DNA from: Phycisphaerae bacterium
Lineage (GTDB): Bacteria > Planctomycetota > Phycisphaerae > UBA1845
Assembly (NCBI GenBank): GCA_029260215.1
Contig: JAJDDQ010000011.1
Coordinates: forward strand, 1 to 46,395
DNA length: 46,395 bases
Direction of reading: 5' to 3'
A model generated the notes under the pieces. It saw only the letters and a program-made list of their open reading frames with translations. It was not told the origin of the DNA and made no database searches. A program made the position numbers and the translations under genes. Below are positions 9,624 to 29,575 of this stretch, in pieces. The first letter of the stretch is position 1; the number at the start of each line of letters is the position of its first letter.

Positions 9624-9626
9624 GAT

Positions 9627-12637: not shown

Positions 12638-12646
12638 GAGTATTTC

Positions 12647-13354: not shown

Positions 13355-14130
13355 GACTGGTCCTTTCGGTGCCCGCCGAATGGGTTGCGTACCGGGCGAA
13401 CGGATCGGGCGTAGCCGTCTTCCCAGTCGCTCATCAGCGACGCGCGGCGGCGGGCTTGGTACGCTTCGATCGCTGCGCGTCTGGCGTATCCAATGATTTT
13501 GCGCCGGGCGCGCAACGCCCGAAGCCCGATCAGCTTGTCCAATTCGCCGGAGTGCAGGGCCGTGAGTTCCTGTTGGGCCTGCAGGACAGCTTTGGGGCCT
13601 GGGAGTTCGTCAACGCCGAGATCGACACCGTTCGAGGCGCGGATTAATAGGGCCAGCCGATCGGTGGTCGGTGACATGGACCGCTGCACACGTTCACTCA
13701 ACGCGCGTTCGGTAGCGAGCGACGCGCGTTCGGACTGCGTCCAGTCGCGTCGCGCGGTGTCAAGCCATCCGGGTGCAACGTCGGCGTGGGTACCGGTGAT
13801 CGGGTACATTGCATCAACGTCGGGACCGTCTTCGAAGAGGATCTGGCGGACGACATCATTCGCGAGCGCCTGCTCGTGCGCCACACTGGCCGGCAGATCG
13901 GCCAGCGCCTGCACCTGCAACTGTATTTGCGTCGTCGCTCGGGTCACCTGCGTCCCCAACGCGGTAGCCTGCAGCACGTTCTTCGCAAGATTTGCGGGGT
14001 CAAGGATGATGCCGTCGAATCCGCAGAAGAACGCTACGGCACTCCCAGTCGAAATCGCGAGCGTGATGACTGCAAGCAATATCAGGCGTCGATTTGTCGA
14101 GCCATCGGTTCGTTCATGATGACGAATCAT
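13351..14130 (-). CDS. trbJ: TrbJ/VirB5-type protein, upstream copy
   Basis: 259 residues from the ATG at 14130, preceded by AAAGGAG at good distance; an earlier ATG at 14148 lacks this. N-terminal signal or membrane helix (RLILLAVITLAISTGSAVAF), then FDGIILDPANLAKNVLQATA, the TrbJ signature region, and a helical body. It closes with SDWEDGYARSVRPVRNPFGG, shared with the next gene. It overlaps the end of trbE by 17 bases. Most Trb operons have one trbJ, so a tandem pair is unusual; the two copies have diverged well beyond recent duplication. Confidence 0.8.
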   Translation of the reverse strand: MIRHHERTDGSTNRRLILLAVITLAISTGSAVAFFCGFDGIILDPANLAKNVLQATALGTQVTRATTQIQLQVQALADLPASVAHEQALANDVVRQILFEDGPDVDAMYPITGTHADVAPGWLDTARRDWTQSERASLATERALSERVQRSMSPTTDRLALLIRASNGVDLGVDELPGPKAVLQAQQELTALHSGELDKLIGLRALRARRKIIGYARRAAIEAYQARRRASLMSDWEDGYARSVRPVRNPFGGHRKDQS

Positions 14131-16573
14131 GATCACTCCTTTCGGCATTGGGGGACGAGTCGGCGAACGCGCGCAGGTAGGCCGTCGCGAATCCGTCGCG
14201 TCCGTGTTCGGACAGCAGGCGTGAGATCATCATCTGCACGCTGGACGATCCACCGCTGCACAGTGCCAGTGCAGTCCTTCCCAGCCCGAGTTCGAAGAGC
14301 CGATTGCCGGCGGGGCTTTGGAAGTAGTAATCGCGTTTGGGCGTCGCGGTCGCAAGAATGTCGATCTGCCGATCGTTGAGACCAAAGGACTGATAGAGTG
14401 ATCGTGTGCCTTGGTCATGGGCCGACTCATTGGGCAGGAGAATGCGCGTCGGACAGCTCTCGATGATGGCGTGGGCGATGGTCGAATCGGTGACGTCGGC
14501 CAGGGACTGCGTGGCGAAGACGACGGCGACGTTCTTTTTGCGCAGGGTTTTGAGCCATTCGCGGATCTTGGCGGCGAACAGCGAGTCGGTCAGGAACAGC
14601 CACGCTTCGTCCAGGAACAGGAATGTCGGGCGTGGTTTGGAAATACCTGTTTCCGGATTCGTAAACGGTGCGGCGAAGCGTTGTTCAAGACGGTGGAACA
14701 GATAGGTCAGCACCGGCACCATGGCCGGGCTGTGCATCAGGGCTTCCATCTCGAATGCCTGAAAATCTCCGTCGCGCAGGGCGTCGCGGTCGGCGTCCAG
14801 GAGGTGGCCGTGCGGCCCGTCGAGCGTGTAGCTCTTGAGCGCGTCGCGCACCGTGTTGCTCTGTGCCAATTCCAGGAGCGTGGTCAGCGTGCGATGTTGC
14901 GCAGGCATGGTGGCCAGGTTGGACAGCGCCGACCAAAGCTCCTGTTTCAGCGGCGGCGTGATCTCGACCCCCTCGCGGTGCAGCATGTCCACCAGCCATT
15001 CCTGCGCCCAGCTGAGCTCGCCCTCGCCGTCCAGTGCGGCCAGCGGTTGAAAGCTGATCGCAGCGGCGTCGGCGGCGAGATCGTAAAAATCCCCGCCCAT
15101 GGCCAGGGTCATGGGCAGGCAACTGCGCCCTTTGTCGAAAAAATAGACCTGAGCGCCTGGGTAGCGCCGGCTTTGTCCGGCGAGGAAGCTCAGCAGCGTC
15201 GATTTGCCCGACCCGGTGGGGCCAAGGACCAGCGTGTGGCCAACGTCACCGTGATGCAGATTCAATCGGAAGGGTGTCGAACCCGTCGTGTGTACGACCG
15301 CCAGGGGCGGACCGTCGAGATGGTCGTTGCGCGGTTCACCCGACCAGACGCTGCTGGCGGGAATGAGGTCGCAGAGACTGAGCGACGAAAAAATCGGCCG
15401 CCGCACATCCGCGTAGGCGTGACCGGGCAAACTCCCCAGCCAGGCCTCCACGGCGTTGAAGTCTTCGATGCGTGAGACCAGCCCCACCCCGTCACAAACG
15501 CGCTGCACGGTTTGCGCGGCTTTTTCGGCGGCGCGTTCGTCCGGGTCGCGGACCGTGATGGTCAGTGTGAAGTAGCCGAAAGAGGCACAATCAGCGCCGA
15601 GTGCTTCGAGGGCGTCGGTAATCTCCGCAGCCTTATTGAGGCTGTCGGTATCGAGGAGTTCGCTTTCGGTTTTGGTGATGAACTCCTTGAGCAGCGTTGC
15701 GATGCCCTTGCGGCGCGAGAACCAGTGACGGCGCAGGCGGTTGAATTCGGCCTCCGCTTCGGTCTTGTCCATGGGCAGGTAGCGTGCACACCACCGAAAC
15801 TCGATCGGGAGGTCCTCCAGTTCGTGCAACAACGAGGGAAGTGTCTCGTTGGCGTAGGCCCGAATCGAAACGACCTTAAGAAAACAGCGTCCGAGCTTCG
15901 GGCTCAGCCCCCCGGTCAACGGCGTGTCCGTCAGGAACGCATCCAGATAGCAGGGCGGATCGGGCATGCGCACAGTAATGCGTCGCTCCGAAACACAGTC
16001 GTGCAGGTAGCTGAGCGTCTCGTCTTCGGTCAGGCGATGCACCTCCGGCAGGAAGGCCGACAGCATGTTGACCATGCTGTCTACCTGACGTTGGAAGTGT
16101 TCCAGTTGTTCACGGTAGAAAGACGCGCCGCGATCGGGGGTGCGCTGCGGGTCGCTCATCAGCATGTCGGTCGCCCGTCGCACGCGATCCGCCGGCGGCA
16201 GGTAGGTGAAGGTAATGTACTGGGTCGACTCGAAGGCCGGCGTCGCGGTCGATGCCTTGCGGTGCTCCTCTTCGATTTGCCGGGCGATCGGGTTGGCCGA
16301 CGGCCGCGTCACGGGATCGGTGACCCTGCGCCGCATGCACTCGATATGCAGGCACCAGCCCGATCCGAGACGCCGAAAAGCGTTGTTGAGCCGGGCGCGA
16401 AACGCCATCAGCTCTTCGGGTGTGGCGCTGTCCACGTCCGAACCACGAAACAACACGGACGTGGACAGACTGCCGTCCTTGTTGAGCATGACCCCGGGCG
16501 TGACCAGTGCCACCCAGGGCAGGTGGTCAGACAGGCGCTGCGGGTGACGTCGGTATTCGCGAAGGTTCCACAT
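14114..16573 (-). CDS. trbE: TrbE/VirB4 ATPase of the type IV secretion system
   Basis: 819 residues, the usual TrbE length. VirB4 ATPases power pilus assembly and substrate transfer at the inner membrane. The N-terminus LREYRRHPQRLSDHLPW and GVMLNKDGS is the standard TrbE opening. The CagE/TrbE/VirB domain covers about 180-390. The C-terminal ATPase has Walker A GPTGSGKS at 451-458 and Walker B LFLDEAWLFL near 655, followed by KKNVAVVFATQSLAD. It starts 12 bases after trbD and overlaps trbJ. No frameshift or missing motif was seen. Confidence 0.95.
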   Translation of the reverse strand: MWNLREYRRHPQRLSDHLPWVALVTPGVMLNKDGSLSTSVLFRGSDVDSATPEELMAFRARLNNAFRRLGSGWCLHIECMRRRVTDPVTRPSANPIARQIEEEHRKASTATPAFESTQYITFTYLPPADRVRRATDMLMSDPQRTPDRGASFYREQLEHFQRQVDSMVNMLSAFLPEVHRLTEDETLSYLHDCVSERRITVRMPDPPCYLDAFLTDTPLTGGLSPKLGRCFLKVVSIRAYANETLPSLLHELEDLPIEFRWCARYLPMDKTEAEAEFNRLRRHWFSRRKGIATLLKEFITKTESELLDTDSLNKAAEITDALEALGADCASFGYFTLTITVRDPDERAAEKAAQTVQRVCDGVGLVSRIEDFNAVEAWLGSLPGHAYADVRRPIFSSLSLCDLIPASSVWSGEPRNDHLDGPPLAVVHTTGSTPFRLNLHHGDVGHTLVLGPTGSGKSTLLSFLAGQSRRYPGAQVYFFDKGRSCLPMTLAMGGDFYDLAADAAAISFQPLAALDGEGELSWAQEWLVDMLHREGVEITPPLKQELWSALSNLATMPAQHRTLTTLLELAQSNTVRDALKSYTLDGPHGHLLDADRDALRDGDFQAFEMEALMHSPAMVPVLTYLFHRLEQRFAAPFTNPETGISKPRPTFLFLDEAWLFLTDSLFAAKIREWLKTLRKKNVAVVFATQSLADVTDSTIAHAIIESCPTRILLPNESAHDQGTRSLYQSFGLNDRQIDILATATPKRDYYFQSPAGNRLFELGLGRTALALCSGGSSSVQMMISRLLSEHGRDGFATAYLRAFADSSPNAERSDHDSSS

Positions 16574-16585
16574 CGTATTGCTCGC

Positions 16586-16858
16586 CTACCAGTCAAGGAA
16601 TGTGGGTTGTTTCAAATGACGACGAAACACGGCGATCCAGTGGGCGTCGTGGCGGGTAAGCGCCACGGACACGCCGAAAAGCCCAAGCCCGAAGCCGAGA
16701 CCGATCAACCACAGGTGCAGCCCCAGCGTGAACACGAGCGTGGTGACCACGGTCAGGATGCCGAGCTCGCGCGGCACTCCGGCGAACAGCGGCGGCTGCG
16801 TCAGCGCGACGTACACGGGCAGCTTGAAGCCTTCCAGCGGCGGTTTCGAGTGCTTCAT
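16586..16858 (-). CDS. trbD: TrbD/VirB3-type membrane protein
   Basis: 90 residues from the ATG at 16858. VirB3 proteins are small inner-membrane partners of VirB4. The sequence has the typical opening PVYVALTQPPLFAGVPREL, then two close hydrophobic helices (about 32-62, ILTVVTTLVFTLGLHLWLIG and GFGLGLFGVSVAL), and a basic tail ending near FLDW. It lies 2 bases after trbC and 12 before trbE, matching the conserved trbC-trbD-trbE order. Confidence 0.88.
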   Translation of the reverse strand: MKHSKPPLEGFKLPVYVALTQPPLFAGVPRELGILTVVTTLVFTLGLHLWLIGLGFGLGLFGVSVALTRHDAHWIAVFRRHLKQPTFLDW

Positions 16859-16860
16859 GG

Positions 16861-17208
16861 TTAGAACGTTGCTCCGTTGGCAAGTCCGAAGAATTCCAGA
16901 ACGAAACTCCCTGCCGTCGCGGCGATGGCGCCTCCGAGCACGACGCCCAGTACGCGCCGCAGAATGGCCCCTTCCGAGAAAGCCAGCGCAAAGCCGAGCA
17001 GAACGATGGCCAGAATAAGCACCGCGCGCACAACGGGGCCGGTGATACTGGTGACCAGTCGCTCGAGCGGCTGTTCCCACGGCATGCCCGCACTCGCCGC
17101 GTGGGCGGATTGCGTCATCAGGAACAATGCGAGCAATGCGATCGGCGCAACCGATCGACGAAACGAACTTTTGAACAAGAATAAGAATGAGAATAAGAAC
17201 AAGATCAT
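16861..17208 (-). CDS. trbC: TrbC/VirB2-type major pilin
   Basis: 115 residues from the ATG at 17208, which has GGAG eight bases upstream. The long N-terminal signal (to about residue 37) ends in SAHA, a fitting signal peptidase site. The mature part has two membrane helices (about 57-75, VVRAVLILAIVLLGFALAF, and about 85-105, RVLGVVLGGAIAATAGSFVL), the pilin fold. The first dozen codons come from a purine-rich low-complexity run on the plus strand (17173-17204) and give FLFSFLFLFK. This makes the signal longer than usual; an internal start is possible. It begins 43 bases after trbB. Confidence 0.85.
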   Translation of the reverse strand: MILFLFSFLFLFKSSFRRSVAPIALLALFLMTQSAHAASAGMPWEQPLERLVTSITGPVVRAVLILAIVLLGFALAFSEGAILRRVLGVVLGGAIAATAGSFVLEFFGLANGATF

Positions 17209-17251
17209 GGACTCACTCCGTGGGTGAAGGGTTGAAACACAAATAGTCCGA

Positions 17252-18346
17252 CTAAACTTCGATATCCTCGAACAGGTATTCGCCGGCGGCGTCCATCCGC
17301 GGCCGGGTGATGGCCGCCACGCGGCGATGTGCGGCGTTGAAGGAACCACGCTCGATGAAGACGACGAGCCCGATGGCGGAGGCGATCGAACGGCGCGGGA
17401 TGGTCACGGTGGCCTCGCGCATCAGATCCTCAAGTCGATAGAGCGCATCGCGCGGCCCGTTGGCGTGCACGGAACAGAGACCGCCGGGATGACCCGTGCC
17501 CCACGCCTTGATCATGGACAAGGCCTCGCCGCCGCGTACCTCACCGATCACAATGCGATCGGGAAACAATCGCAGCGTGGTCTTCACGAGGTCGTCCATG
17601 GTGACCGACCTCAACGCGGGCGGTGCGATCAGGCGCACACAGTCGGCGGCACTGCATTGCAACTCGCGCGTGTCCTCGATGATGACGATGCGGTCGCGGG
17701 TGATGGCCGGTTCCGCCAGGCAGGCGTTGATCAGGGTTGTCTTGCCCGACCCGGTCCCGCCGGAGATGACGATGTTCTCTCGTGCGGTGATGGACGCACG
17801 GATGATCGTGGCGGCCTGTTGCGAAAGAACGCCATCCCGGACGAAATCGTCGAGCGTGTGTACAACTTCGGCCGCCTTGCGCAGTGCAAAGATGGGGCGC
17901 GGGGATACAGGAGGCAACACACCCTGAAAGCGCACCATGGTTCCGGGGAGCACACCCGAAACCGTCGGTCGCCGGCGCGTGGCGGACGCGCCCATGTGCG
18001 TGGCCAGCAGCCGGATCAGCGATTCGGCTCGATCGGGCGCCATCTCGCCCACGACGCGTACGCCCGAACCATGATCGATGACGCGAATTATCCCGTCGTC
18101 GTTGACGTGAATGTCGGTGACCGCAGGATTGCGCAACTCTTCTCCGATCACCGTGCCCAGTACATGGTCCATACTCGCCGTGCGGCGTGCATCAGACGCT
18201 TCGCGTGTGTACGCTTCGCGTGTGAATGCTTCACGTCCCTGAGCTTCGCGTTCGTGGACTTCGCGTCTATCGGTATCGCGGCAATGAGCCTCGCGTTGCT
18301 CTTCATCGCGTCGCCGGCGTTCGGATGCGGGTTCGGTATGCGTCAT
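17252..18346 (-). CDS. trbB: TrbB/VirB11 ATPase with a repeat-coded N-terminus
   Basis: 364 residues. VirB11-type hexameric ATPases switch type IV systems between pilus building and DNA transfer. Conserved parts: NPAVTDIHVNDDG (N-terminal domain), Walker A GGTGSGKT at 196-203, the Asp box EDTRELQ, Walker B GEVRGGEA, and the His box GHPGGLCSVHANG. Before these lies an extra segment of about 58 residues, very charged. It contains seven pentapeptides of the form REAxx (18-52), from REAHC to REASD, coded by a 15-base tandem repeat. A second ATG at residue 59 (MDHVLGTVIGEELR) would give a protein without it. The first ATG overlaps the stop of the gene upstream (ATGA), which favours the long form. 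Confidence 0.93.
   Translation of the reverse strand: MTHTEPASERRRRDEEQREAHCRDTDRREVHEREAQGREAFTREAYTREASDARRTASMDHVLGTVIGEELRNPAVTDIHVNDDGIIRVIDHGSGVRVVGEMAPDRAESLIRLLATHMGASATRRRPTVSGVLPGTMVRFQGVLPPVSPRPIFALRKAAEVVHTLDDFVRDGVLSQQAATIIRASITARENIVISGGTGSGKTTLINACLAEPAITRDRIVIIEDTRELQCSAADCVRLIAPPALRSVTMDDLVKTTLRLFPDRIVIGEVRGGEALSMIKAWGTGHPGGLCSVHANGPRDALYRLEDLMREATVTIPRRSIASAIGLVVFIERGSFNAAHRRVAAITRPRMDAAGEYLFEDIEV
18191..18295. repeat. 15-base tandem repeat at the 5' end of trbB
   Basis: Seven units of 15 bases built on GCTTCGCG (plus strand), with exact or near copies every 15 bases; coding strand unit CGCGAAGC plus seven. They encode REAHC, RDTDR, REVHE, REAQG, REAFT, REAYT and REASD. The same octamer with the same spacing occurs in trbI at 9144-9188 in another frame. 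Confidence 0.85.
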
Positions 18347-18768
18347 GCGTCGATCTCCGCGTCATCGAGAATGGAAACACCGTCGTGCAGGTTGCGGCGG
18401 GCCAGTGCAATGAGACGCTTGAAGCGCAGGCGTCCACTCATCGACGCGGCATCGCGGTCGCCGGGCACCAGTTCGGGCGTGTGATTCAAATAGGTACGCA
18501 CCGACAGGGCCAGCAACTCGCAGATCAGGGCTATGTCGCGCCCGAGCACCTGCTCGTGGGTGTTGAGCCGCGAGAGGACGAGCTTGCGGAATTCCTGCAT
18601 TTCGCTTTGCACGGAGGTGTCGGAATGAGATAGCAGGGACTCACGTGCCGCGTTGGCCAGAACCACCGCGCAGGGCAGGCCGATGCGCCGGCTGCGCTGC
18701 TCGGCGGCGCGTACCACATCCGTTTCGAAGCGCACGGTTTTTTGAAGTTTGCGTTGTCTGTGTGTCAT
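18343..18768 (-). CDS. CopG-like ribbon-helix-helix protein of the transfer operon
   Basis: 141 residues. The N-terminus (KTVRFETDVVRAAEQRSRRIGL to about residue 50) fits a CopG-type ribbon-helix-helix: a short strand starting with VRF, then two helices. The rest is helical without a known motif. A CopG-type gene between traG and trbB is standard in Trb-type ICEs, where it may regulate transfer genes or assist relaxosome formation. Both ends overlap neighbours by four bases (ATGA with traG and with trbB), so all three are coupled. Confidence 0.75.
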   Translation of the reverse strand: MTHRQRKLQKTVRFETDVVRAAEQRSRRIGLPCAVVLANAARESLLSHSDTSVQSEMQEFRKLVLSRLNTHEQVLGRDIALICELLALSVRTYLNHTPELVPGDRDAASMSGRLRFKRLIALARRNLHDGVSILDDAEIDA

Positions 18769-20669
18769 AGGGCGTAGTCGTCTCCGGTGGGTGATGTTGG
18801 GGTGTCCGGCGACGGATTGGGCGAGTCCGATTCATGCGCGCCGTGCATGCCGGGCAGCATCCATTCCTCATCATCGAGTTGGCTGTGGTCGAAAATCACC
18901 TCCGACGGGATGCGTTCTCCCTTGGGACGCTCGCCCAGCAAGTCGTGGGGAACGCCCAACTCGGGATGAAGATCGTCGCCATGCGGCGAGTCGATGCGCA
19001 CTGCCTGGTCCGGTGGAAGCAGGACGCGGTGTTTGAATACGGGGTCGGTGTAGTAGCGAATTTTTTGAAGGCGCATGGGTTTGTGGCCGGTCACGAAAAC
19101 AAGCTGTTGATCGCCGGAGAGGCAGCGTACTTCACCGGGTTGCACCAGCGGTCGTACCTGCTCGCCCTGATGCACCGAGTCGGGGCCGATGTGGGGCCAG
19201 CGACGATGTCCGTAACTGTCCCGGTATTCCACCGACTCGCCGCACATCTGACTGACGCGCTGCGCGGTGACGGTGTCCGCACAGGCGAAAACAGAGATGA
19301 CGTGGCAATTGTCGATGATGCTCTGATGCAGTCCGTAACGCTCGATCAGGTCGTTGAAGCTCTGCACGATGATGTGGGCCTTGATGCCGTAACCGGCCAT
19401 CTGGCGCAGACTGGTGCTCAGAAACTCAAGTCGTCCGAGTGAGACGAACTCATCGAGTTCGAAGAGCAGACGACGTCGTTTGGGGCGGCCACGATTGTCG
19501 TGGTCGAGTTGCTCCAGCAGCGCCCTTGATATCTGATTGAGCAGCAGGCGTGTCAGCGGTCGCAGCCTGGGGATGTCGGACGGCGGTGGTTGAATGTAGA
19601 GCGTTACGGGATGCTCGGCACACATCAGGTCGCCGACGGTGAAGTCGGACGCCGAGGTGTTGCGTACGATTAGTTCGTCGGCGAAGAGCGTGAGATAGGA
19701 CTGCGCCGTGGCCGCCACGCCGGCGACGAACTTCGGTGCCTGACGAAGCAGCTCTTTGGCCACCCGGGCGATTTCGGGATGGGATTCGAGCTTGCCCGTC
19801 GCCGGGTCGCACAAATGGGGTAGCTCGATCATGTCCTTGAGTGTGTTCTTGAGGTCCAGGACGCGTTCACGCACCCTGCCCAGATGCTTGCCCGAATCGG
19901 GTTCGGTGTGGAGTACGTGCAGCATCACCGCGGTCAGGAGTTGTTTGCTGTGCAGATCCCAGACGTCGAATTGCTCCTTTGCCCCGTCCGGATTGACCAG
20001 CATCTCACTGATGTTCTGCACATCGCGAATCTGGTTGACGCCCTTGCGCACCTCGGTGAGCGGGTTGTAGTGGGCGCTGTCGGTGCTGGTGGGATCAAAG
20101 TACAAACAGTGCGAAAACCGTGACCGCCAGCCGGCGGTGATCTTCCACAACTCCCCCTTGACGTCGTGAACCACCGCGCTGTCCAGCCACGACAGGAGTG
20201 TCGGAATGACCTGGCTGACGCCCTTGCCGGAGCGCGTGGCGCCGACGGTCAGCTGGTGCTCGGGGCCGTCGAAGATCAGAACACGTCTGCCGTGACGCGC
20301 GACCACCACGCCGTCTTTGGCGACCAGCCCCGCCCGTTTGATGTCGCGCAGTGTAGCCCAATGCCCCTTGCCGATCGGACGCACGCTCGGCGAAACGTTC
20401 TTCAGCACCGCAACCAACAGGGCTCCGCCGGCACCGTGCGCCGCGAGAATCGCCTCGGCGCTGCGAAACACGTCCGGTCGTGATCGGCCCCAGCGGTCGT
20501 GCCAGCGCAGCAGTGACCACGGTGGGTAAAGTCGATGGCTGCCGATGTGAAGATTCCAGCCCAAAGCCCGCTCGGGCAGGCGCGCCGCGGTCACCTGCGT
20601 TGCGACGACGACGCCGATCGACAGAGTGAGCGACAGAATTACCAACGATCTGATGCGTGTACCGTTCAT
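18765..20669 (-). CDS. traG: TraG/VirD4 type IV coupling protein
   Basis: 634 residues. Coupling proteins bring the relaxase-DNA complex to the secretion channel and are ATPases. Two N-terminal membrane segments (about 7-27 and 75-92) are followed by Walker A GATRSGKG at 143-150 and the TraG motif HDVKGELWKITAGWRS. Walker B lies in LLFELDEFVSLGRLEFL, followed by GYGIKAHIIVQSFNDL. The C-terminus is acidic and Pro/Ser rich, which in relatives contacts the relaxosome. It overlaps the relaxase stop and the CopG-like start by four bases each. Confidence 0.95.
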   Translation of the reverse strand: MNGTRIRSLVILSLTLSIGVVVATQVTAARLPERALGWNLHIGSHRLYPPWSLLRWHDRWGRSRPDVFRSAEAILAAHGAGGALLVAVLKNVSPSVRPIGKGHWATLRDIKRAGLVAKDGVVVARHGRRVLIFDGPEHQLTVGATRSGKGVSQVIPTLLSWLDSAVVHDVKGELWKITAGWRSRFSHCLYFDPTSTDSAHYNPLTEVRKGVNQIRDVQNISEMLVNPDGAKEQFDVWDLHSKQLLTAVMLHVLHTEPDSGKHLGRVRERVLDLKNTLKDMIELPHLCDPATGKLESHPEIARVAKELLRQAPKFVAGVAATAQSYLTLFADELIVRNTSASDFTVGDLMCAEHPVTLYIQPPPSDIPRLRPLTRLLLNQISRALLEQLDHDNRGRPKRRRLLFELDEFVSLGRLEFLSTSLRQMAGYGIKAHIIVQSFNDLIERYGLHQSIIDNCHVISVFACADTVTAQRVSQMCGESVEYRDSYGHRRWPHIGPDSVHQGEQVRPLVQPGEVRCLSGDQQLVFVTGHKPMRLQKIRYYTDPVFKHRVLLPPDQAVRIDSPHGDDLHPELGVPHDLLGERPKGERIPSEVIFDHSQLDDEEWMLPGMHGAHESDSPNPSPDTPTSPTGDDYAL

Positions 20670-22714
20670 CGGTCCATTCCTGTGCTTCGTTGCGGGTTGC
20701 GTGGTTCACGTCGCCCAAACGTTGAGTGACGACTGTTGACGACCTTGGCCGTGATCAGCGTTCCCCGTTCAATCCGCGGTGCGCTGGAAACCGGAGCACC
20801 GTAGAATCGCTCCCAGGTGGCCACCACCGCGTAGGTACCCTGGTGCAGATTCACCGTGCTGTGGTACACACCGGGAACTTCCCGCCGCGTGCTCAATATA
20901 GAAAACCCCTTGCCGTTCTTTTCCTTACACTGCTGCGCGAAATTCTTCAGCTCGACTGACCTTAGATGGTCGATCGCGCCGTAAGGGAATCGGACAGCAT
21001 GTTGGTCTTTGGAGCCCGGATCGCGCTCGGCGAATCCATGTTCGACAAGCCACGCGGCGCGTTCGCCCATCGCAGCGCGCACCGCCGGCATGTGCGTGAT
21101 ATCGTTTTGAGGCAGAGTCTCGGAGAGTCTGATTCGAATCATCTGGCGATCCAGCCAGGTGTACGCTTTGGCGGTTGTTTGCGACGACAAGGAGTGAGTC
21201 GCGTGGACACGGACATCCAGCCAGCGCGAGCGCCGTGCGGTGCATTGCTCCAACATCTTCGGGTTGATCGTTGCGACGTTTTTGCCGGAATGCGTGACAC
21301 CGCTTTCGGCCTGTCGGGCCAGACGAATGACCGATTTCGAGAATCGGCGGAGTCGGTGTTCCGCCTGATCACGGGTCAGATTCGTTCGATGACGTTGCAG
21401 CCATGCGCGATGGGCGGCGGTGCTGTAGGTGGACGTGTCGTTGCTTCTGGCAACCTCGATCACCTCACGCATCTGAGACCAGCGTCGCTGCGCTCCGCGT
21501 CCGATCTCGACCACGCCGCCGATGTCGACGGCGTCGAGTGCGGGGTCCGCCCAGACGCGGGCGTGACGTGGCTTGCCGTCGTGTCCTTCGACAATGACCA
21601 GGCGTTCGTCGCTCTGCTCATCCAACACATTTTTGGCAACCAGCAACCCACGCACCGGGGACGGCGGCTTGTCCTTGCGCGCAGTGTCGGAGGGCAGCCC
21701 GGTGATCGCGACGGCAGCATGCGCCGCGGTGCGCCCGAGGGCCTGGTGCAGGTGTTTGAGAATGTCGTTGCGCTCGCCCAGTTCTCGGAGCCTCGACTCG
21801 AAATCCGGCGCAACGTACCAGGTTTGCGACGTGCTTTGAGGCTGATGCGTGCGGCCTGCCTGCCGATTCGCCACGCCCATGCGGTTGAGCACGCCGAGTC
21901 GTTCCCGCAGAAGTTCCACGGTGGTCAGGCTGTGGCGACTGAGCCTGACGGCGCTGAGGTTGATGCGCAGCCCTTCAGGCGTCGGTTCGGCGGTGCGCAA
22001 GATGACCCGATCAAGGCTGGTGAAGCGTTCGGCCTGCGCTTCTCTGGCCAGCGCGGATCGCGCATCGTCGCGCGTGCGTTCACCCAACCATTCGGTGGCC
22101 ACTTCGGCTGCGCGCCCGCGAATGCCGCGGGCGATGTAGTCGCGTGGAATGACGAGATCGGAGCCGTCCGACGCGCGTCCCCGAATGAGAATGTGCGTGT
22201 GCGGATTGTTCGTGTTGGTGTGGTTGACGGCGATCCACTCGATATCGCCCAGGTCATGCTGAATACGCGTAAGCGTCTCGCGGACGTAGCCCTTCAGATC
22301 GTTGAGTTCGCGGGCATGCTCAGGGCTGACGACCACCCGGAAATGATGGCGATCTTCGCGCCATGCGCGTGATTCCTTCCCGGCATTGATGTCGTCTCGT
22401 GTGGCGTCGAAGAACCGCCCGCTGCCGACGTCGTGTGTGACCGCTTCGCGCGTCAGGTACCCGATGTGACGACGCAGAGACGCGCGGCTTTTTTGCGGTG
22501 TGTGATGGCGCACGACGCGCACCTTGGCGACGACGCGTTGAGGCAACCCCCCGTGTGTCGGTCGGGATCCATCGCGCCGCTGTGCGCGACCTGATGTGCC
22601 GCCTCGGCGGGATCGCGATACGCCCGAACGCACGCGATGCGCCTCTTCCCTGCCCTCGCGCGCGGCGCGACCGAAACGCTCCGGATCCAGGTCATCGTTG
22701 TGTTGCTTGGCCAT
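20666..22714 (-). CDS. MOBP/RlxS-like relaxase (DUF3363 type)
   Basis: 682 residues from the ATG at 22714, preceded by GGAG about ten bases upstream; an ATG at 22741 would add nine residues. Relaxases nick oriT and lead the strand into the recipient. The basic, disordered N-terminus (to about 58) precedes VAKVRVVRHH and HIGYLTREAV, where Tyr86 is a candidate nucleophile. Then come EDRHHFRVVVSPEHA and the metal-binding HUH-type motif NHTNTNNPHTHILIRG at 164-179. The C-terminal third has GTYAVVATWERF and SAPRIERGTLI near the end, as in DUF3363 relaxases linked to Trb systems. First gene of the transfer operon; the candidate oriT lies just upstream. Confidence 0.9.
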   Translation of the reverse strand: MAKQHNDDLDPERFGRAAREGREEAHRVRSGVSRSRRGGTSGRAQRRDGSRPTHGGLPQRVVAKVRVVRHHTPQKSRASLRRHIGYLTREAVTHDVGSGRFFDATRDDINAGKESRAWREDRHHFRVVVSPEHARELNDLKGYVRETLTRIQHDLGDIEWIAVNHTNTNNPHTHILIRGRASDGSDLVIPRDYIARGIRGRAAEVATEWLGERTRDDARSALAREAQAERFTSLDRVILRTAEPTPEGLRINLSAVRLSRHSLTTVELLRERLGVLNRMGVANRQAGRTHQPQSTSQTWYVAPDFESRLRELGERNDILKHLHQALGRTAAHAAVAITGLPSDTARKDKPPSPVRGLLVAKNVLDEQSDERLVIVEGHDGKPRHARVWADPALDAVDIGGVVEIGRGAQRRWSQMREVIEVARSNDTSTYSTAAHRAWLQRHRTNLTRDQAEHRLRRFSKSVIRLARQAESGVTHSGKNVATINPKMLEQCTARRSRWLDVRVHATHSLSSQTTAKAYTWLDRQMIRIRLSETLPQNDITHMPAVRAAMGERAAWLVEHGFAERDPGSKDQHAVRFPYGAIDHLRSVELKNFAQQCKEKNGKGFSILSTRREVPGVYHSTVNLHQGTYAVVATWERFYGAPVSSAPRIERGTLITAKVVNSRHSTFGRREPRNPQRSTGMDR

Positions 22715-22835
22715 GAGACTCTCTCCAAACCACGGGGCCATAAGGGGTTGCAGATTTGCAGACTCTCCATACTCCGGCAGAGTCTCTGTAAGCGCTGTGG
22801 AGCACGCTATTTAGGAGAGACAGGAGTCTCCCGTT
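22715..22835. other. Candidate oriT / operon leader with inverted repeats
   Basis: Directly upstream of the relaxase. AGACTCT (22760-22766) and AGAGTCT, twelve bases further on, form a seven-base inverted repeat. GAGAC-AGGA-GTCTC, about 45 bases further right, forms a second. The theme AGACTCTC also occurs at the ribosome binding site of the relaxase gene. Repeats of this kind beside a relaxase gene are where oriT is usually found. The nic site cannot be read from sequence alone. Confidence 0.4.
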
Positions 22836-23777: not shown

Positions 23778-24350
23778 TCATCGGGGCTCACCCCATGTGA
23801 TGAGAGACTTGCGCACCGCGACGATATCGCGGTACAGAATCGGGCCGAAATAGCGCGAGTCGAACGAGTTCCACACCCGACCGCTGAACACAAAGAACTC
23901 ATCCGCCTCCAGTGCCCGGTCGGCCCGCCAGATGGGCATTGGCCGACTCTTGGAATCGTGCGTTTGGATGAGTGCGATCACGGCACCGTTGATGCGCAGG
24001 AAAGGCCCCGTCGTGTCGATATGATCGCCTTCGGTCGCGAGAACGTGCTTCAGAACGGTGATCGTGTTCTTGCCGCGTGAAGTGCGCGCAAAAACAGAAT
24101 CTCCCATCACGCGAGGCACGTGAAACTCGATCAGACTCCCGCGCCGGGGAGGTTTGTCGATCGCGACGTACAAACCCGGTGCAACGCTCGGCGAGACGTT
24201 TAGAACAACGTAGCGACCAGGGAGCACCAACGACAAAACCACCGTCAAGGCCGACAGTGTCAAGAGTACCGTCAACGCAATGTGTCGACGGGCGACGGTG
24301 CTCAGGAATTTCCGAGAACCGATCATCGATTGGAGCACCTTAAATCTCAC
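23778..24350 (-). CDS. traF: TraF conjugation signal peptidase (S26 family)
   Basis: 190 residues. TraF is a membrane-bound peptidase that matures (and in RP4 helps cyclise) the TrbC pilin. One N-terminal membrane helix (about 22-45) is followed by the catalytic Ser55 in NVSPSVAPGLY and Lys101 in TVLKHVLATEGD, the Ser-Lys dyad of the S26 family. The family signature SFDSRYFGPI lies at 162-171. It is separated from the trb operon by the small XRE operon. Its start overlaps the stop of an ECF sigma gene (ATGA), so pilin maturation is tied to a sigma-factor operon. Confidence 0.92.
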   Translation of the reverse strand: MRFKVLQSMIGSRKFLSTVARRHIALTVLLTLSALTVVLSLVLPGRYVVLNVSPSVAPGLYVAIDKPPRRGSLIEFHVPRVMGDSVFARTSRGKNTITVLKHVLATEGDHIDTTGPFLRINGAVIALIQTHDSKSRPMPIWRADRALEADEFFVFSGRVWNSFDSRYFGPILYRDIVAVRKSLITWGEPR

Positions 24351-24928
24351 GCTTCGACCTCCTCAATCAATCGGCGCAGGAGGATTCGGGCACGCCGCAA
24401 ACGGGTCCAGATCGCTCCAGGCGTCGTGCCCAAATATGTGGCGATTTGCGCGCAGTTCATGCCCTCGTAGTAGAACATCCTGACCGCGATCCGATCGTCG
24501 TTCGAAAGCCGTTCAAGGCAATCGCGCAGATGATCGATCCGGTCGACAAGATGGCGATCACCGACAGGGGCTCGCGACGTCGCATGCGCTTCGGTGGCGG
24601 CAGAGTCGGCGACCGGTCGTTTTCGCCGGCACGCGTTGAACATACGACAAATGGCGACCCTTCGGATCCAGCCGTACATGGCAGCCTCGCTGTAGTACAA
24701 TGGCGGTCGTCGCACCAGAATCAGCAGGCTCTCCTGCAGCGCGTCCTCGTCGAGACGAAGGCCGTATTGCCTGCCGAGCATGATCTGTCGAAGCGTCTCG
24801 AATGCAGCTGCGTCAAGTGTGTTGACGTCGGTTTGACCGGACGGCGTGCGCGTCAACAATGCGGGCGTTTTGGGGCCCTCATTACGATCTGCTTGGCAGT
24901 CCGCGTTGTCGCCGTTCATGTACGTCAT
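24347..24928 (-). CDS. ECF-type RNA polymerase sigma factor
   Basis: 193 residues from the ATG at 24928, which overlaps the stop of the preceding gene (ATGA); ATGs at 24937 and 24919 are alternatives. Region 2 is seen in LDEDALQESLLILVR and MYGWIRRVAICRMFNACRR, region 4 in LSNDDRIAVRMFYYEGMNCA and QIATYLGTTPGAIWTRLRRA. These are the two domains of a group 4 (ECF) sigma factor. It is co-transcribed with traF, so it may direct transfer genes. No anti-sigma gene with a zinc motif was found beside it; the hypothetical gene upstream or the kinase module to the right may take that part. Confidence 0.85.
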   Translation of the reverse strand: MTYMNGDNADCQADRNEGPKTPALLTRTPSGQTDVNTLDAAAFETLRQIMLGRQYGLRLDEDALQESLLILVRRPPLYYSEAAMYGWIRRVAICRMFNACRRKRPVADSAATEAHATSRAPVGDRHLVDRIDHLRDCLERLSNDDRIAVRMFYYEGMNCAQIATYLGTTPGAIWTRLRRARILLRRLIEEVEA

Positions 24929-25641
24929 TGGCCACACCGACCGATCCGAGACGGTGCATCACCAATCGTTGCGAGGGTCGTGCATTGTGCGGCAGGTGCC
25001 AGCCTGTTGAACGGAACGTGAAATGATCGAGAGAAGTCGATGTTGAACACCAGAAGCCAAACACGGCTGTCGGGCTGGTACTGCCAATGCAGTGTCGTTC
25101 CTGCGATGTCGGCCTCAACAAATACCGAAATCATGCTATGCTTGATGAAGTACAGATGACGTTGTCGCGACGTTCGGGATCGAGCTCGGTGTGCCGCACG
25201 GTTGACCGCCCATAGCGTGCTCGCGGCCAGTCGAAGAAACGCACGGAATTCGTAGCGGAGGGAACCGAGGCACGGAGTGCACGCAGTAGATCTTTGCGTT
25301 TCCTGCGGCCTCAACGGGTGGGCCGGCGCAGACAACGCCGCATAGGCCCAGTCACACGCTCGAGCGGCTTCCGGCACGAGATGACGAAACACGACCAACG
25401 CCGACGCCATGATTCTTGGGAGCGGTCGTTCGCGATATCGTCGACCGGACGGATGAGTGGACGACGCGAGCAAACGCATGGCCAGCCTGGCCTGCGCCAA
25501 TACGCGACACGCGTTGGACAGCCTGATTTCATGTAGGGTGTCGTTTAGAGCATTGTCCTCATTGCGTGCGATGCGGCGCGTGCGTGCCCGGGGATGAGGA
25601 CTTTCAACAAGTCGTCTCGTTGCGTCGGTTCCGGTCGTCAT
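24925..25641 (-). CDS. Hypothetical protein upstream of the ECF sigma gene
   Basis: 238 residues, not recognised. The first two thirds are Arg/Ala rich and helical (LSNACRVLAQARLAMRLLAS). The last third has a sequence that reads like a folded beta domain: LYFIKHSMISVFVEADIAG, TTLHWQYQPDSRVWLLVFNI. The case for it being real is the four-base ATGA overlap with the sigma start and its place at the head of that operon. It could modulate the sigma factor, but this is only a guess from position. The start is uncertain because its 5' end overlaps an open frame on the other strand. Confidence 0.5.
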   Translation of the reverse strand: MTTGTDATRRLVESPHPRARTRRIARNEDNALNDTLHEIRLSNACRVLAQARLAMRLLASSTHPSGRRYRERPLPRIMASALVVFRHLVPEAARACDWAYAALSAPAHPLRPQETQRSTACTPCLGSLRYEFRAFLRLAASTLWAVNRAAHRARSRTSRQRHLYFIKHSMISVFVEADIAGTTLHWQYQPDSRVWLLVFNIDFSRSFHVPFNRLAPAAQCTTLATIGDAPSRIGRCGQ

Positions 25642-26034
25642 GGCCTAGCCTCCGGTCGGGTTCGTCGTCATGGCCGGCAACAACTGCCAGCGACTCGATA
25701 CCCGTCGCGGGACACGGAACGGATCACCAATTTCGAGATTTATTTGGAGCACGTTTCGAAGGCGCTGGAATGTCTACACGAGGGCGTCGGCGCAGAGCGA
25801 GTATCTCGCCGGTGGCCCGGCTGGGCCGACGACGATCGATTGGAGGCGTTGAGTGTCCGGTTGATCAAGAGCGATGTGATGCACGCTGGCGTCTGGCCAC
25901 CACGGCGCATATTTGAACAATCGGCGCGTCTTGCCCTGACTCCTTTCAGAGGTTCGGTGTATGCAGTAGAATCCACGCGGTTCCTGGAGTTTTCAGTCGT
26001 CACGCCGCAGTTTTCGGGTCAGTCAACGAGGTAA
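25594..26034 (+). CDS. Possible small hypothetical protein before the sigma-kinase genes
   Basis: Open frame of up to 146 residues ending 6 bases before the next gene. The part after about residue 40 has protein-like composition (ITNFEIYLEHVSKALECLHE, RFLEFSVVTPQF), but the first 40 residues lie opposite the start of the gene on the other strand and are probably not coding. No good start with a ribosome binding site was found. It may equally be a leader region carrying the promoters of the two divergent operons. Confidence 0.3.
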   Translation: MRTFNKSSRCVGSGRHGLASGRVRRHGRQQLPATRYPSRDTERITNFEIYLEHVSKALECLHEGVGAERVSRRWPGWADDDRLEALSVRLIKSDVMHAGVWPPRRIFEQSARLALTPFRGSVYAVESTRFLEFSVVTPQFSGQSTR

Positions 26035-26040
26035 CGCCAC

Positions 26041-26667
26041 ATGATGAGCACTGGATTCACGGACGCCTTTGCCAAAGATCCGGTTGGTGAATTGGATCGA
26101 CTCTTTCGAATGGTGGCGGACCGCTATGAGCGCTGGCTGCGAAGTGGCCGAATGACGCAGCGCTTCGCTCGGAAACGCGTGTCGCTTGGCACGGTGAACC
26201 GCCGGGTTCTGCAATCAATTCAACGAAAAATCGACAACGGAGAGGAAATCAACGGATCCCTGGTCGAGGCCGTTGCAATGCGGTCCATCTACGACAAGCT
26301 GAGCGAACTGAACAGGCAGGAACAACGACGCGGTGATGATGGCCGCATGCCGCAACTGTCTCAGTTGGCAACTCCTTCATCCGAGCGCGCGATTGAGCCG
26401 GTCAACCCGGTTCAGCTGACGGAACAGGATCCGGCGGAACTCGCCTCGCGTTCGGAAATCCTTCAGGCCGTACGCGCACTGTTCGTTGATCCCGAGCTCA
26501 ACGAGCAGGAAGCGATGCTGCTGCGTCATCTGTTTGTACATCAAAAAACAAAGGCGGCGGCCGATCACGCCGGCATCCCCCACAGCACCGCCAAGCGCAA
26601 GTTTCGAGAATTGTTTGCCAAGTTGCGTCGCCACTTCGGTGATCTTGAAGATGCGTTGGAGGCGTGA
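26041..26667 (+). CDS. Sigma-70-like (ECF) factor paired with a Ser/Thr kinase
   Basis: 208 residues. The C-terminal part is a region 4-like HTH: LNEQEAMLLRHLFVHQKTKA then AADHAGIPHSTAKRKFREL. The N-terminal half (about 1-105) is helical and matches the general look of planctomycete sigma factors encoded beside protein kinases, though region 2 is hard to see, so a plain HTH regulator remains possible. Its stop overlaps the start of the kinase gene (TGATG), which strongly links the two. It is divergent from the traF-ECF operon. Confidence 0.65.
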   Translation: MMSTGFTDAFAKDPVGELDRLFRMVADRYERWLRSGRMTQRFARKRVSLGTVNRRVLQSIQRKIDNGEEINGSLVEAVAMRSIYDKLSELNRQEQRRGDDGRMPQLSQLATPSSERAIEPVNPVQLTEQDPAELASRSEILQAVRALFVDPELNEQEAMLLRHLFVHQKTKAAADHAGIPHSTAKRKFRELFAKLRRHFGDLEDALEA

Positions 26668-28280
26668 TGGGTTCATCTGACACGGCAAGATCCGACGTGA
26701 ACAAGCCCGTTCACGGCGAGACGCATGCAGACTGTGCCGCCATTGAGAGGGCCTGTGAGAAGCTGCGCTCGGCCTGCCGCGACGCCATTCCGGCGGTGGA
26801 ACGTATTGCTGATTTCGTACCGCCGACGCGTCATGCCAATGCCTGTGAACGAGCGGAAACACTGATCGACCTTGTCGGCGTCCATCTCCGCGCGCGTATC
26901 GAACGACTCGGCAATCCCGATCTGGGTGAATATTTGCAGCTGGCCGGCGACGACGCCGAACTGCAGCGGGAATTGCGAACGCTCTTTCGCAACGTTGTGG
27001 GGGCGTTTAAGCGTGAGCTTGATATCGAAGTCGTTCATTCCATTTACCCACTCACGCCAGGAGCACGGTCCGTCGTGTACGCGGCGCGAGACCGCGCTCC
27101 CGATCTCGACCAGGCCGCGGACGTGGCCGTAAAGGTTCTGCATCCCGAACTGCGCGACGACGTCGAATCACGTGAGCGATTCCATCAGGAGGTGGAATTG
27201 CTCAAACGTGCACGGATGCACACTGAGCGCGTCGTTCGTGTCTTCGAAGCGGGGCATTTGACGTATTTGCCGGACAACGTTCGGCGCTGCCCTGCGATTG
27301 TGATGGAGCATTGCCACGGAACACTGCATGACCGCATCGGCGATTATCGGGGTGACGCCGCGGCGGAATTGGTGTTACACATCGCGGTTGCCGTTCAAAA
27401 ACTCCACGACGACGGCATCGTGCTGCGCGACCTCAAGCCGAGCAATGTCTTGATGCGCCGGACGGCGGATGGAGACGTCCCCGTGCTCGCCGACCTGGGA
27501 ATCGCGAAAGATCAGTGGCAGCAACCGGACATTACCACCGACGAAATCGCGCCGCGCGGAACGCCCGGTCACCGATCACCGCAGGCCGTGCGGGGCGAAC
27601 GCCTCAATACCGATCATGACGAAAAAAGCGAGGATGTTTGGGGAATCGGAGCGCTTTTGTTTCAGATGCTGCATCCCGATCATCGCAGTTTCGTAGATCG
27701 TGAACACGATCTGGATGACCCAAGCCGCCTTCGCGAGATGATTGCTCAAGGACTTCCTCAGGTCGATGACGTGTTGCGTGCGATCATTAATGATTGCCTT
27801 TCGCCTCGTTGTGTGGATCGGCCGTCCATGGCCGACGTATCTGAACGACTCCGGCTCCACGCGTCTTTGCGAACGAAACATCCAAACAAAAAAAATCGCG
27901 ACGTGCGCATCGTTGCGACGTGCATGATCATCTTTGTCGCTGCGGCAATCTGGTTTACCGTTCGGACGAGTTTCCAAAACGGGGATGACGCTCCGGGAAA
28001 CTCGCATATCAACAAACACCCGATTCAGCTCCACCCCGCGTTGTGGGATACGAGATTTACCGACGCAGAGATCGTCCTGATCTATCGAATTGATCCTGAC
28101 AAGCGATCCGAGAGCCTGGACGTTATCCTCGGGCAATCTCTGGATTCGGACTCCCGGAGAGCCTTCGACAAGGCCAACATACCGCAAGACCAACGAGACA
28201 GGCTATTTCGAAAGCGAAGCGAAACGCCTCTTTTCGACGGCAAGGACGACCTCGTCGCGTACCGCTATTCGCTGCGTTAG
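26667..28280 (+). CDS. Membrane-anchored Ser/Thr protein kinase with a long N-terminal extension
   Basis: 537 residues from the ATG at 26667 (a GTG at 26664 is also possible). The kinase domain covers about 125-400: Lys156 in VAVKVL, catalytic loop LRDLKPSNVL with Asp255, and DLG (276-278) in place of DFG, followed by GTPGHRSPQA and VWGIGALLFQML. About 120 helical residues precede it, unlike typical PknB kinases, which begin with the kinase. One membrane helix (about 413-433, VRIVATCMIIFVAAAIWF) leads to a C-terminal domain of about 100 residues on the far side, without PASTA or other known repeats. It is coupled to the sigma-like gene and may control it by phosphorylation, as known for other planctomycete sigma-kinase pairs. 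Confidence 0.85.
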   Translation: MGSSDTARSDVNKPVHGETHADCAAIERACEKLRSACRDAIPAVERIADFVPPTRHANACERAETLIDLVGVHLRARIERLGNPDLGEYLQLAGDDAELQRELRTLFRNVVGAFKRELDIEVVHSIYPLTPGARSVVYAARDRAPDLDQAADVAVKVLHPELRDDVESRERFHQEVELLKRARMHTERVVRVFEAGHLTYLPDNVRRCPAIVMEHCHGTLHDRIGDYRGDAAAELVLHIAVAVQKLHDDGIVLRDLKPSNVLMRRTADGDVPVLADLGIAKDQWQQPDITTDEIAPRGTPGHRSPQAVRGERLNTDHDEKSEDVWGIGALLFQMLHPDHRSFVDREHDLDDPSRLREMIAQGLPQVDDVLRAIINDCLSPRCVDRPSMADVSERLRLHASLRTKHPNKKNRDVRIVATCMIIFVAAAIWFTVRTSFQNGDDAPGNSHINKHPIQLHPALWDTRFTDAEIVLIYRIDPDKRSESLDVILGQSLDSDSRRAFDKANIPQDQRDRLFRKRSETPLFDGKDDLVAYRYSLR

Positions 28281-29575
28281 CGTCCGTCCTCAGTTTGCGT
28301 GAGCATCGCCTCAGCCAGCGCGGCGCATGATCGGGCGATCGCCTCGGTGTAGTTCCGGTCCTGGGAATTCGCCAGTCCGAACCAGATCGGCCGGGACGTT
28401 TTCAGATCGATGATTCGAACACTCACCGCTCCCTGGAACGCTTGTACGTTGCGAACCAACCTTGTGTCCCGGTCCAGGAAAACGTCGTCGGGACTCTCAA
28501 AGAGCCGAACGGACTCCATGTCGACCGGCGCGGGTTGCGTTCCGGCAACGTTCGCAAGATTCGTCGCCGCACGAAGCGCACTAAGGTCGACATCGCCTGC
28601 CCCTGTGAACGAGGGCGCAAACGACATTGGGTTGACGAAACGATCCTCGCGTTCATCGTCCCACACGCGTCGCTCCTGCGTGCGCTTGCGGGCCACGTCC
28701 GGATGCGATTCAACGAAAGCCGTGAGCTCATCTTCCAATCCCGCAGACGCAGACGACGACTCATCGTCGTGTACAAATACGGTCGACTCGTCCGCCTTGG
28801 AAGCGAACGTGAGCAAATCGCTCTCGTATTCATGCACCCGTGTGTTGTAATTTGCCACATCACGCAGGTATTGGTCGCGAAGGTTTTCGTATGTGTCCCA
28901 GTCCTCAGGCGTAACCCGCCAGGGAATCTCGACCGTCACGGGGTTGTTGGGCACCTTTACCGCATGCACGACGATGTAGAATGACACCGCGTCCTGTTCT
29001 CCCTGTTCGATCTCCTCGCGCTGTAGCGGCGTCAGGTTAATGATGTCATTGCTGACGATGTCCGAGTATTCCGCCAGCTTCATGACGCGATAGTCACGAT
29101 CCGCCAGGCTGACGTCACGCTTTTGGAGTTCGGCGAACAGAAGGTCGCTCACGAACTGGCCCGCCGCGGACGATCCGCCGACCAGGCTTTCCCGACCGAT
29201 GACGGTAATCAGCTGAGCGTCACGCGGATCGAACGCACCGCCCTCCGAACTGCGCACTTCGGCCGGCGTGTTGGTCAGGAGGTCCGCGTCTTCCGGGGTC
29301 AGTCGCGGTGGTTGCGGCGGGATAGGTCGGATGGGTAGATCCAGACGGGTTTGGATCAACCCGCTTACGTCCAGTTCATTCCGGGCCGTTGAGCGCGATG
29401 CGCGACGCGAATTTCGGGCATAGGTTTGGCCGCTGGATCCGCTTCCGCCCCACCCATTCCGCAGCCCGCCAGCAATCCCTTTGTCGAGTTCACCGATCGT
29501 TTCGCATCCTGACAACAATGCGACGCCCAAAACGGACTGAAAAATGACGATGTAACGCTTTTGAAATCGGTTCAT
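28277..29575 (-). CDS. Large lipoprotein of unknown function
   Basis: 432 residues. The N-terminus is a clear lipoprotein signal (VIFQSVLGVALLSGC, Cys24 as lipid site), so it is anchored in a membrane facing the periplasm. After a Ser/Gly/Arg linker, the body has LITVIGRESLVGGSSAAGQF and VSDLLFAELQKRDVSLADRD, and near the end VRIIDLKTSRPIWFGLANSQ. These bring to mind FlgO/CsgG-like periplasmic domains; that likeness is weak and was not tested. An acidic middle part (HDDESSSASAGLEDELTAF) looks disordered. It faces the kinase gene tail to tail with overlapping stops, so it might be its sensor partner in the same compartment. Confidence 0.7.
   Translation of the reverse strand: MNRFQKRYIVIFQSVLGVALLSGCETIGELDKGIAGGLRNGWGGSGSSGQTYARNSRRASRSTARNELDVSGLIQTRLDLPIRPIPPQPPRLTPEDADLLTNTPAEVRSSEGGAFDPRDAQLITVIGRESLVGGSSAAGQFVSDLLFAELQKRDVSLADRDYRVMKLAEYSDIVSNDIINLTPLQREEIEQGEQDAVSFYIVVHAVKVPNNPVTVEIPWRVTPEDWDTYENLRDQYLRDVANYNTRVHEYESDLLTFASKADESTVFVHDDESSSASAGLEDELTAFVESHPDVARKRTQERRVWDDEREDRFVNPMSFAPSFTGAGDVDLSALRAATNLANVAGTQPAPVDMESVRLFESPDDVFLDRDTRLVRNVQAFQGAVSVRIIDLKTSRPIWFGLANSQDRNYTEAIARSCAALAEAMLTQTEDGR

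Follow-up and report, generated by a model that had tools for sequence, protein, structure and literature searches.

Sigma factor genes recur beside traF in IncP-like integrative and conjugative elements of Phycisphaerae and probably belong to an exchangeable transfer-regulation cassette

The DNA analysed here, called the window in the following, is an entire contig of 46,395 bases (JAJDDQ010000011.1, our contig C3) from a Phycisphaerae metagenome-assembled genome (MAG) of 4.97 Mb in 88 contigs, and it carries an IncP-like (Trb) integrative and conjugative element (ICE) with an RlxS-like relaxase. In this element, the gene of the pilin-processing peptidase TraF follows a gene for an extracytoplasmic function (ECF) sigma factor, here ecf, and an open reading frame (ORF) of no known family, here unk, while a sigma-like gene, sigL, and a membrane Ser/Thr kinase gene are read divergently from this group (Table 1). 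We found that sigma factor genes, often accompanied by a kinase gene, recur beside traF in related Phycisphaerae elements. From the comparison, the region is probably the cassette by which this IncP-like ICE of Phycisphaerae regulates its transfer, with an exchangeable slot for sigma/kinase modules.

A search with the window relaxase, its own genome counted, gave matches in 18 of 347 genomes of the class, 7 of 114 of the order and 3 of 294 of the phylum; 80 loci came from named genomes, and the named relatives with the closest elements were Phycisphaerae MAGs. The neighbourhood scan covered 88 loci, 15 of them from Phycisphaerae, and in eight of these 15 traF was found just upstream of the relaxase gene. 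A sigma gene was present within about 2 kb of traF in all eight (the window, L037, L054, L057, L058, L059, L074 and L113), and each of these loci has a sigma gene above the Pfam cut-off; L054, L057 and L059 were tested on contigs that had also been fetched under the handles L036, L039 and L052, and L058 counts as the same element. The distinct cases number about six, since the relaxases of L058 and L059 are identical and L074 is closely related to L113. The divergent slot holds a kinase in four of the eight loci, and a sigma gene occupies the position of ecf in L037 (in a split frame), L039, L074 and L113.

The arrangements differ between elements. Genome G022 repeats the window layout, with a sigma-kinase pair divergent from unk-ecf-traF, and G134 has a sigma-kinase pair divergent from traF. 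In G151, whose relaxase is 40% identical to that of the window, a helix-turn-helix (HTH)-kinase is divergent from ecf-traF, and ecf and traF overlap by 4 bp. G124 and G050 contain one element in two genomes, where sigma, anti-sigma-like and caspase-like genes are divergent from traF (L052:7454-11880); the anti-sigma-like gene has no Pfam match and was named from its place and look, and the caspase-like product combines Peptidase_C14 with Sel1 repeats. In OFTM12 and OFTM57, an ECF gene stands directly before traF, and G013 holds a broken ninth copy, in which a fragment of sigma region 4, scoring slightly under the cut-off, lies beside a traF fragment. In the relaxase tree, the window, G134, G022, G151 and G124/G050 fall in one clade with G352, and OFTM12/57 lie deeper; the sigma label changes three times on this tree and was more clustered than in any of 500 shuffles. 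Upstream of ecf-traF in OFTM12 (L074:6358-7881) there is also a gene for a 507-amino-acid protein without Pfam match, whose first part looks sigma-like by eye and whose remainder looks like repeats.

The same arrangement was absent from the control loci of other bacteria. Among 40 loci with the same relaxase type and an upstream traF, no sigma gene was detected in the 4.5 kb (0/40) and no kinase in the 5.5 kb that precede the relaxase gene (0/40), three of these loci having less than 3 kb of upstream DNA. One of the 40, L131, has a sigma gene elsewhere in the locus, and L079, where no traF was detected, has one 3.2 kb upstream. ICE sigmas made up part of the training set of the main sigma profile, and a second profile was trained on chromosomal sigmas only; both recovered 20 of 20 ECF genes from such genomes, chosen as strong TIGR02937 matches. 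According to the sigma densities of six genomes, the probability that a sigma gene lies by chance no more than 2 kb from a given traF is 2-6% per genome (the densities and the recall test both drew on a TIGR02937 search of 40 genomes, with the best matches listed). The sigma-traF linkage in Phycisphaerae is not due to chance.

Sigma-kinase pairs are ordinary elsewhere in the window genome, which has 40 TIGR02937 matches (36 above the cut-off) and 20 kinase matches. Of the 19 kinase genes elsewhere in this genome, 11 have a sigma gene directly upstream (from coordinates, checked on the ORFs), and TGATG, GTGA or ATGA was read by eye at five of these 11 junctions. An initial annotation of the window, made from its sequence alone, had noted that such pairs occur in planctomycetes. 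The pair as such is therefore nothing special in this genome, and what needs explaining is its place beside traF. One explanation is that the gap upstream of traF is a cargo hot spot that tolerates insertions, so that common sigma-kinase pairs, for instance from defence or stress functions, would be passengers without a role in transfer. Besides the abundance of the pairs, this is favoured by the variation of the modules between elements, by matches of the kinases to generic models of defence kinases (PD-T4-6, for example), by the caspase-like gene at this place in G124/G050, and by the proximity of a Lamassu-like system and a toxin-antitoxin pair in the window. However, ecf leads into traF in divergent elements (the window, G151, OFTM12 and OFTM57, and in split form G022), with the 4-bp overlap in two of them, and the place holds a sigma gene in every sampled locus and a repressor-type gene in most of the sister loci described below. 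An insertion hot spot would not keep choosing regulators, and we regard this explanation as unlikely. The initial annotation had named kinase-sigma-lipoprotein genes found mostly away from ICEs as evidence against its proposal; sigma-kinase pairs do lie mostly away from the ICE in this genome, but next to traF they occur too regularly to be stray cargo.

Additionally, the slot is occupied by a different kind of regulator in a sister group. A TraF profile matched 27 places in 22 of 397 class genomes. Sigma genes lie within flanks of about 1.5 kb at seven of the 27, all in elements already described above. At nine of the 14 other strong places (L171-L179 and L187-L191), a gene combining an HTH with Peptidase_S24 (CI/LexA-like) is divergent from traF, and S24 was confirmed in the four of these nine genes on which Pfam was run; a DUF2840-like gene lies in between at the two sister loci tested, in one case above the cut-off. 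These 14 places belong to nine genomes, seven of which have a relaxase match, and the relaxases from five of the nine, placed in the tree, fall in the sister clade. The slot divergent to traF thus looks as though it tends to hold a regulator, CI/LexA-like in one group and sigma modules in the other. This tendency is our main argument for a role of the window module in the regulation of transfer.

TraF processes the pilin of IncP-type systems, and without it the mating pilus of the RP4 type is not matured. The traF product, which is 32-48% identical to six relatives, is an S26 peptidase encoded together with the Trb and relaxase genes. The overlaps reported in the initial annotation were read again directly from the sequence: ecf and traF share 4 bp, and unk and ecf 13 bp, provided that the GTG start of ecf at 24937 is correct. 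For the ecf product Pfam detects region 4, and the TIGR02937 match is longer. The unk ORF has weak codon bias, and the C-terminal part of its product is 34% identical over 98 amino acids to that of the ORF at the same place in G022. On the divergent arm, the annotated TGATG coupling is likewise present, the TGA of sigL (26665-26667) overlapping the kinase ATG at 26667, and the stop codons of the kinase and lipoprotein genes overlap tail to tail. For the kinase, the catalytic motifs VAVK, RDLKPSN and ADLG are intact, and a single membrane segment lies near residue 411; when plasmids were searched with it, no match reached 80% coverage of the query. Family models make the identities of traF, ecf and the kinase gene secure.

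The initial annotation had counted the lipoprotein gene as part of the island, and its role as a conserved partner was not supported. No family model was accepted for its product, and neither the 346 other class genomes nor the ICE neighbourhoods that were fetched contained a match. Being absent from these genomes and convergent rather than co-transcribed with the kinase gene, it is probably not a core part of the module. Neither the lipoprotein nor the sigL product had a significant match among PDB sequences, and their single-sequence AlphaFold models (predicted local distance difference test, pLDDT, 34.5 and 43.5, respectively) were too poor for use.

The most likely mechanism is as follows. 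The unk-ecf-traF group looks like one transcription unit, which would couple TraF to the ECF sigma factor, and the divergent arm would produce a second, sigma-like factor together with the membrane Ser/Thr kinase, replaced in one related element by an anti-sigma-like protein. An envelope or cell-state signal may act on the kinase, which would activate its sigma partner via phosphorylation; the sigma factor or factors would then raise transcription from the divergent region, making TraF available and switching on pilus assembly, and might perhaps also switch the relaxase-traG-trb run. The slot itself is exchangeable between elements, with sigma-kinase, HTH-kinase and sigma/anti-sigma/caspase-like modules on one side and the S24 repressor of the sister loci on the other. 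That the cassette controls transfer, in which direction, and that the kinase phosphorylates a sigma factor are inferred from this comparison, and a role in transfer regulation is the best reading of the slot. A bolder and tentative version, which we consider possible though not probable, is that of a plug-in slot where a repressor switch and host-type sigma modules (with a kinase, a pseudokinase-like HTH-kinase, or an anti-sigma plus a caspase-like protein) replaced one another more than once, tying pilus maturation to different envelope or stress signals and placing conjugation under element-encoded, phosphorylation-controlled sigma factors.

Several observations weigh against transfer regulation by this cassette. 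The initial annotation had suggested looking for a shared promoter motif upstream of unk (25641), sigL (26041) and the relaxase gene, and no promoter-like dyad common to the three was found by an exact spaced-dyad comparison, carried out within the window, L036, L037, L052 and L074. A shared sigma promoter was rejected as a candidate: no pair of window regions shares a dyad, and elsewhere one or two dyads were found (reached by 16 of 200 shuffles for L037 and 19 of 200 for L052), with palindromes in the L052 gap. The comparison of the regions upstream of different relaxases returned nic-like sequence. In addition, the relaxase-traG-trb run is preceded by an upstream region of its own, and the small XRE-type HTH gene there (23431-23676) could be the real regulator of that run. 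The ecf gene of G022 is split over two frames, and G134 and G124/G050 have no ECF gene before traF, their only adjacent sigma being on the divergent arm. In the kinase-like protein of G151 the catalytic Asp has been lost (ILRGLRPAS), so that phosphotransfer cannot be the rule there, and this protein may act by binding only. Locus L044 of G352, from the same relaxase clade, has neither traF nor a sigma gene in the 2.9 kb available upstream. Furthermore, the five ICE kinases (G151 with a second one) were not grouped in the kinase tree, a weak one with long branches, and their descent as one inherited clade is not supported by it, a single origin still being possible. That the sister traF loci and the sister relaxases belong to the same elements is likewise inferred, a shared contig being found only for G171:C146 and G177:C179.

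The controls have weak points, too. The profile free of ICE sigmas finds the sigma gene in the window, L037, L054, L057 and L074, and at E 0.001 it misses the sigma genes of L058, L059 and L113, where Pfam matches. A separate Pfam control on 81 ORFs from 18 of the 40 control loci gave no sigma and no kinase, the matches including transglycosylases (14), S26 (8), RovC-type (8), DUF2840 (7) and RPA (7) proteins. This control is incomplete, with S26 in only eight ORFs though all 18 loci have traF; it took in 81 of 116 ORFs, the other 35 being mostly short, reaching into the relaxase gene or on the other strand, and some real genes were displaced by opposite-strand ORFs. In its stead we rely on the profile control and the accompanying recall test.

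The nature of sigL bears on the same question. Its product is matched by none of the Pfam and NCBIfam models, its region 2, the region whose part 2.2 lacks the DAED motif in ECF43 factors, does not align reliably, a profile of 11 chromosomal kinase-linked sigmas of the same genome gave only E 0.71, and a profile-profile comparison with seven ICE sigmas gave a probability of 1.4%. With a single-sequence fold too unreliable to help, the ORF at 26041-26667 might encode no sigma factor but a different helical protein of the HTH kind that is paired with the kinase. On the other hand, a profile of three chromosomal sigma-type proteins (L002, L003 and L004) ranked sigL first outside its own members at 1.7e-8, a value flattered by the fact that all three were originally found with sigL as the query. 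L002 alone gave 9.7e-4 against 0.81 for the best shuffle; L002 is above the TIGR02937 cut-off and L004 has Sigma70_r2. Moreover, the length, place and TGATG coupling of sigL equal those of the sigma-kinase pairs of the same genome. The HTH alternative is improbable in our judgement, and sigL probably encodes a sigma factor, a view that leans on place and coupling as well as on the profiles. The second sigma-like factor of the initial annotation is thus retained as probable only, no curated model recognising it. Close relatives of it were lacking in the 346 other genomes of the class; the best hit in its own genome had E 0.1, and two weak partial matches (2.9e-4 and 9.6e-4) came from the family and class samples.

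Two independent layers could also be present, with the ECF sigma factor as the real transfer regulator together with traF and sigL-kinase-lipoprotein as an unrelated envelope-sensing module that is divergent from it by accident. The codirectional ECF-traF order in the window, G022, G151, OFTM12 and OFTM57 fits such a division, as do the divergent module being the part that varies most and the lack of close relatives of sigL and the lipoprotein in the class sample. Nevertheless, traF of G134 and of G124/G050 has no sigma gene beside it other than the divergent one, which points to a divergent arm that may stand alone as a regulator. We hold this division to be rather unlikely; for the ecf-traF arm it is compatible with the cassette that we prefer.

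Concerning the element as a whole, Pfam and NCBIfam scans of the window proteins placed the Trb-type type IV secretion genes, TraG and the relaxase in a single run, the Trb genes beyond those listed in Table 1 being named by position only. An integrase gene beside tRNA-Ser, together with this run and the RlxS-like relaxase, identifies the element as an IncP-like ICE. The relaxase is a relative of the RlxS family and not a member, as its score against the curated RlxS model is below the cut-off of 850 bits; its DUF3363 match is above its own cut-off. No exact repeat of at least 16 bp that could mark the ends of the element was found on the 46-kb contig. In most Phycisphaerae elements, the 15-base sequence GGAAGGCAAGATAAA precedes the relaxase gene at a distance of about 100-150 bp, exactly or with one or two changes, and it is also present in part of the proteobacterial loci; its reverse complement resembles the IncP nic consensus, and it is a putative nic/oriT site. 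The relaxase had no confirmed match in IMG/VR, and the plasmid matches listed reached only about 32-33% identity.

Table 1. Features of the window related to the element and its traF region
Feature	Position	Strand	Evidence or remark
Integrase ORF, tyrosine type	5454..7124	+	Phage_integrase 1.6e-10; real start probably past the tRNA
tRNA-Ser	5704-5796	-	Adjoins integrase ORF
Trb-type mating-pair genes	8379..18346	-	Pfam: TrbI, CagX (trbG), TrbL, CagE/TrbE ATPase, VirB3-like, T2SSE ATPase (trbB)
TraG coupling protein	18765..20669	-	T4SS-DNA_transf 2.3e-83
RlxS-like relaxase (DUF3363), first gene of traG-trb run	20666..22741	-	DUF3363 9e-45; RlxS 305 bits; tree
Putative nic/oriT core GGAAGGCAAGATAAA	22834..22848	-	Same 15-mer upstream of relaxase in related elements
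traF, S26-type pilin-processing peptidase	23778..24350	-	Peptidase_S26 5.4e-19, above cut-off; TraF_Ti 4.3e-19, below curated cut-off
ecf, ECF sigma factor gene	24347..24937	-	Sigma70_r4_2 1.6e-12; TIGR02937 (sigma70-ECF) 50.1 bits, cut-off 42.9
unk ORF, no family, first gene of unk-ecf-traF group	24925..25641	-	No family model; start may be further in
Divergent intergenic region, 399 bp, presumed promoters for both arms	25642..26040		Sequence
sigL, sigma-like gene, very divergent	26041..26667	+	Profile of three sigma-type proteins; place and overlap like chromosomal sigma-kinase pairs
Membrane Ser/Thr kinase, about 100 amino acids outside	26667..28280	+	Pkinase 2.7e-23
Lipoprotein gene, convergent with kinase	28277..29575	-	LSGC lipobox, read by eye from translation

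Other genes of the window were also recorded. A DUF7249 gene and the small XRE-type HTH gene (23105-23676) lie between traF and the relaxase gene, on the strand opposite to both. A ParE toxin and Phd/YefM antitoxin pair (29904-30562) adjoins the lipoprotein gene, and Lamassu-like genes were found at 31294-34948 (LmuB 5e-108, LmuC 1.7e-5, LmuA 2.7e-45), with ABC-3C domains by Pfam. ParA and ParB partition genes (38294-40004) are inside what may be the element, and ParB relatives also occur in the fetched G134 and G013 stretches. Lastly, a group II intron with a reverse transcriptase/maturase and an HNH domain is present at 43405-45328.

The initial annotation, based on one element, had proposed a five-gene island linking conjugation to an envelope signal, to be sought beside ICE genes in related genomes. 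Its direction is right: the sigma gene, and often the kinase, does recur beside traF in Phycisphaerae ICEs, while the lipoprotein and the shared promoter dropped out, and with the comparison the island looks like a recurrent, exchangeable regulatory slot. If this is true, sigma factor/kinase pairs would join the known ways of switching ICE transfer, with one control point named, TraF and pilin maturation, and the exchanged modules would form a natural series with which the signals that trigger conjugation in Planctomycetota can be tested. No description of an ICE with such a sigma/kinase-traF arrangement was found among the papers listed from the open literature on ICEs, sigma factors and Planctomycetota conjugation, which mostly excludes subscription papers and does not establish absence in print.

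Among known regulators, the S24-type gene in the slot of the sister traF loci resembles SetR of SXT, an S24 (CI/LexA-like) ICE repressor and divergent regulator next to transfer genes, whereas in the window this place is taken by sigma factors and a kinase. The nearest parallels to the module itself are ECF genes beside Hanks-type kinases. The membrane kinase PknS of Xanthomonas citri phosphorylates its partner EcfK, encoded in a type VI secretion system (T6SS) region, and so switches on this neighbouring secretion system (PMC13147305), and EcfP of Vibrio parahaemolyticus is an ECF sigma factor phosphorylated by the kinase PknT (PMC8999054). These ECF43 pairs control a T6SS or polymyxin resistance (PMC13147305, PMC8999054), whereas the window module belongs to a mobile element, where it adjoins a conjugation gene, and its sigL fits no general sigma model. 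The planctomycete groups ECF59, ECF61, ECF62 and ECF217, predicted to be kinase-regulated, also have a sigma gene beside a Ser/Thr kinase gene (PMC8999054); sigL, unlike them, is unrecognised by the general models and can be likened to them by gene arrangement only. The traR gene of the Tn4371-family ICEs encodes a positionally conserved regulator studied for its role in transfer, but one of LysR type (PMC11448139). SigN of pBS32 is a plasmid-encoded sigma factor; unlike what is suggested for the window sigmas, it leads to cell death after DNA damage and, as far as the available part of the source goes, is apparently not tied to conjugation genes (PMC6751061).

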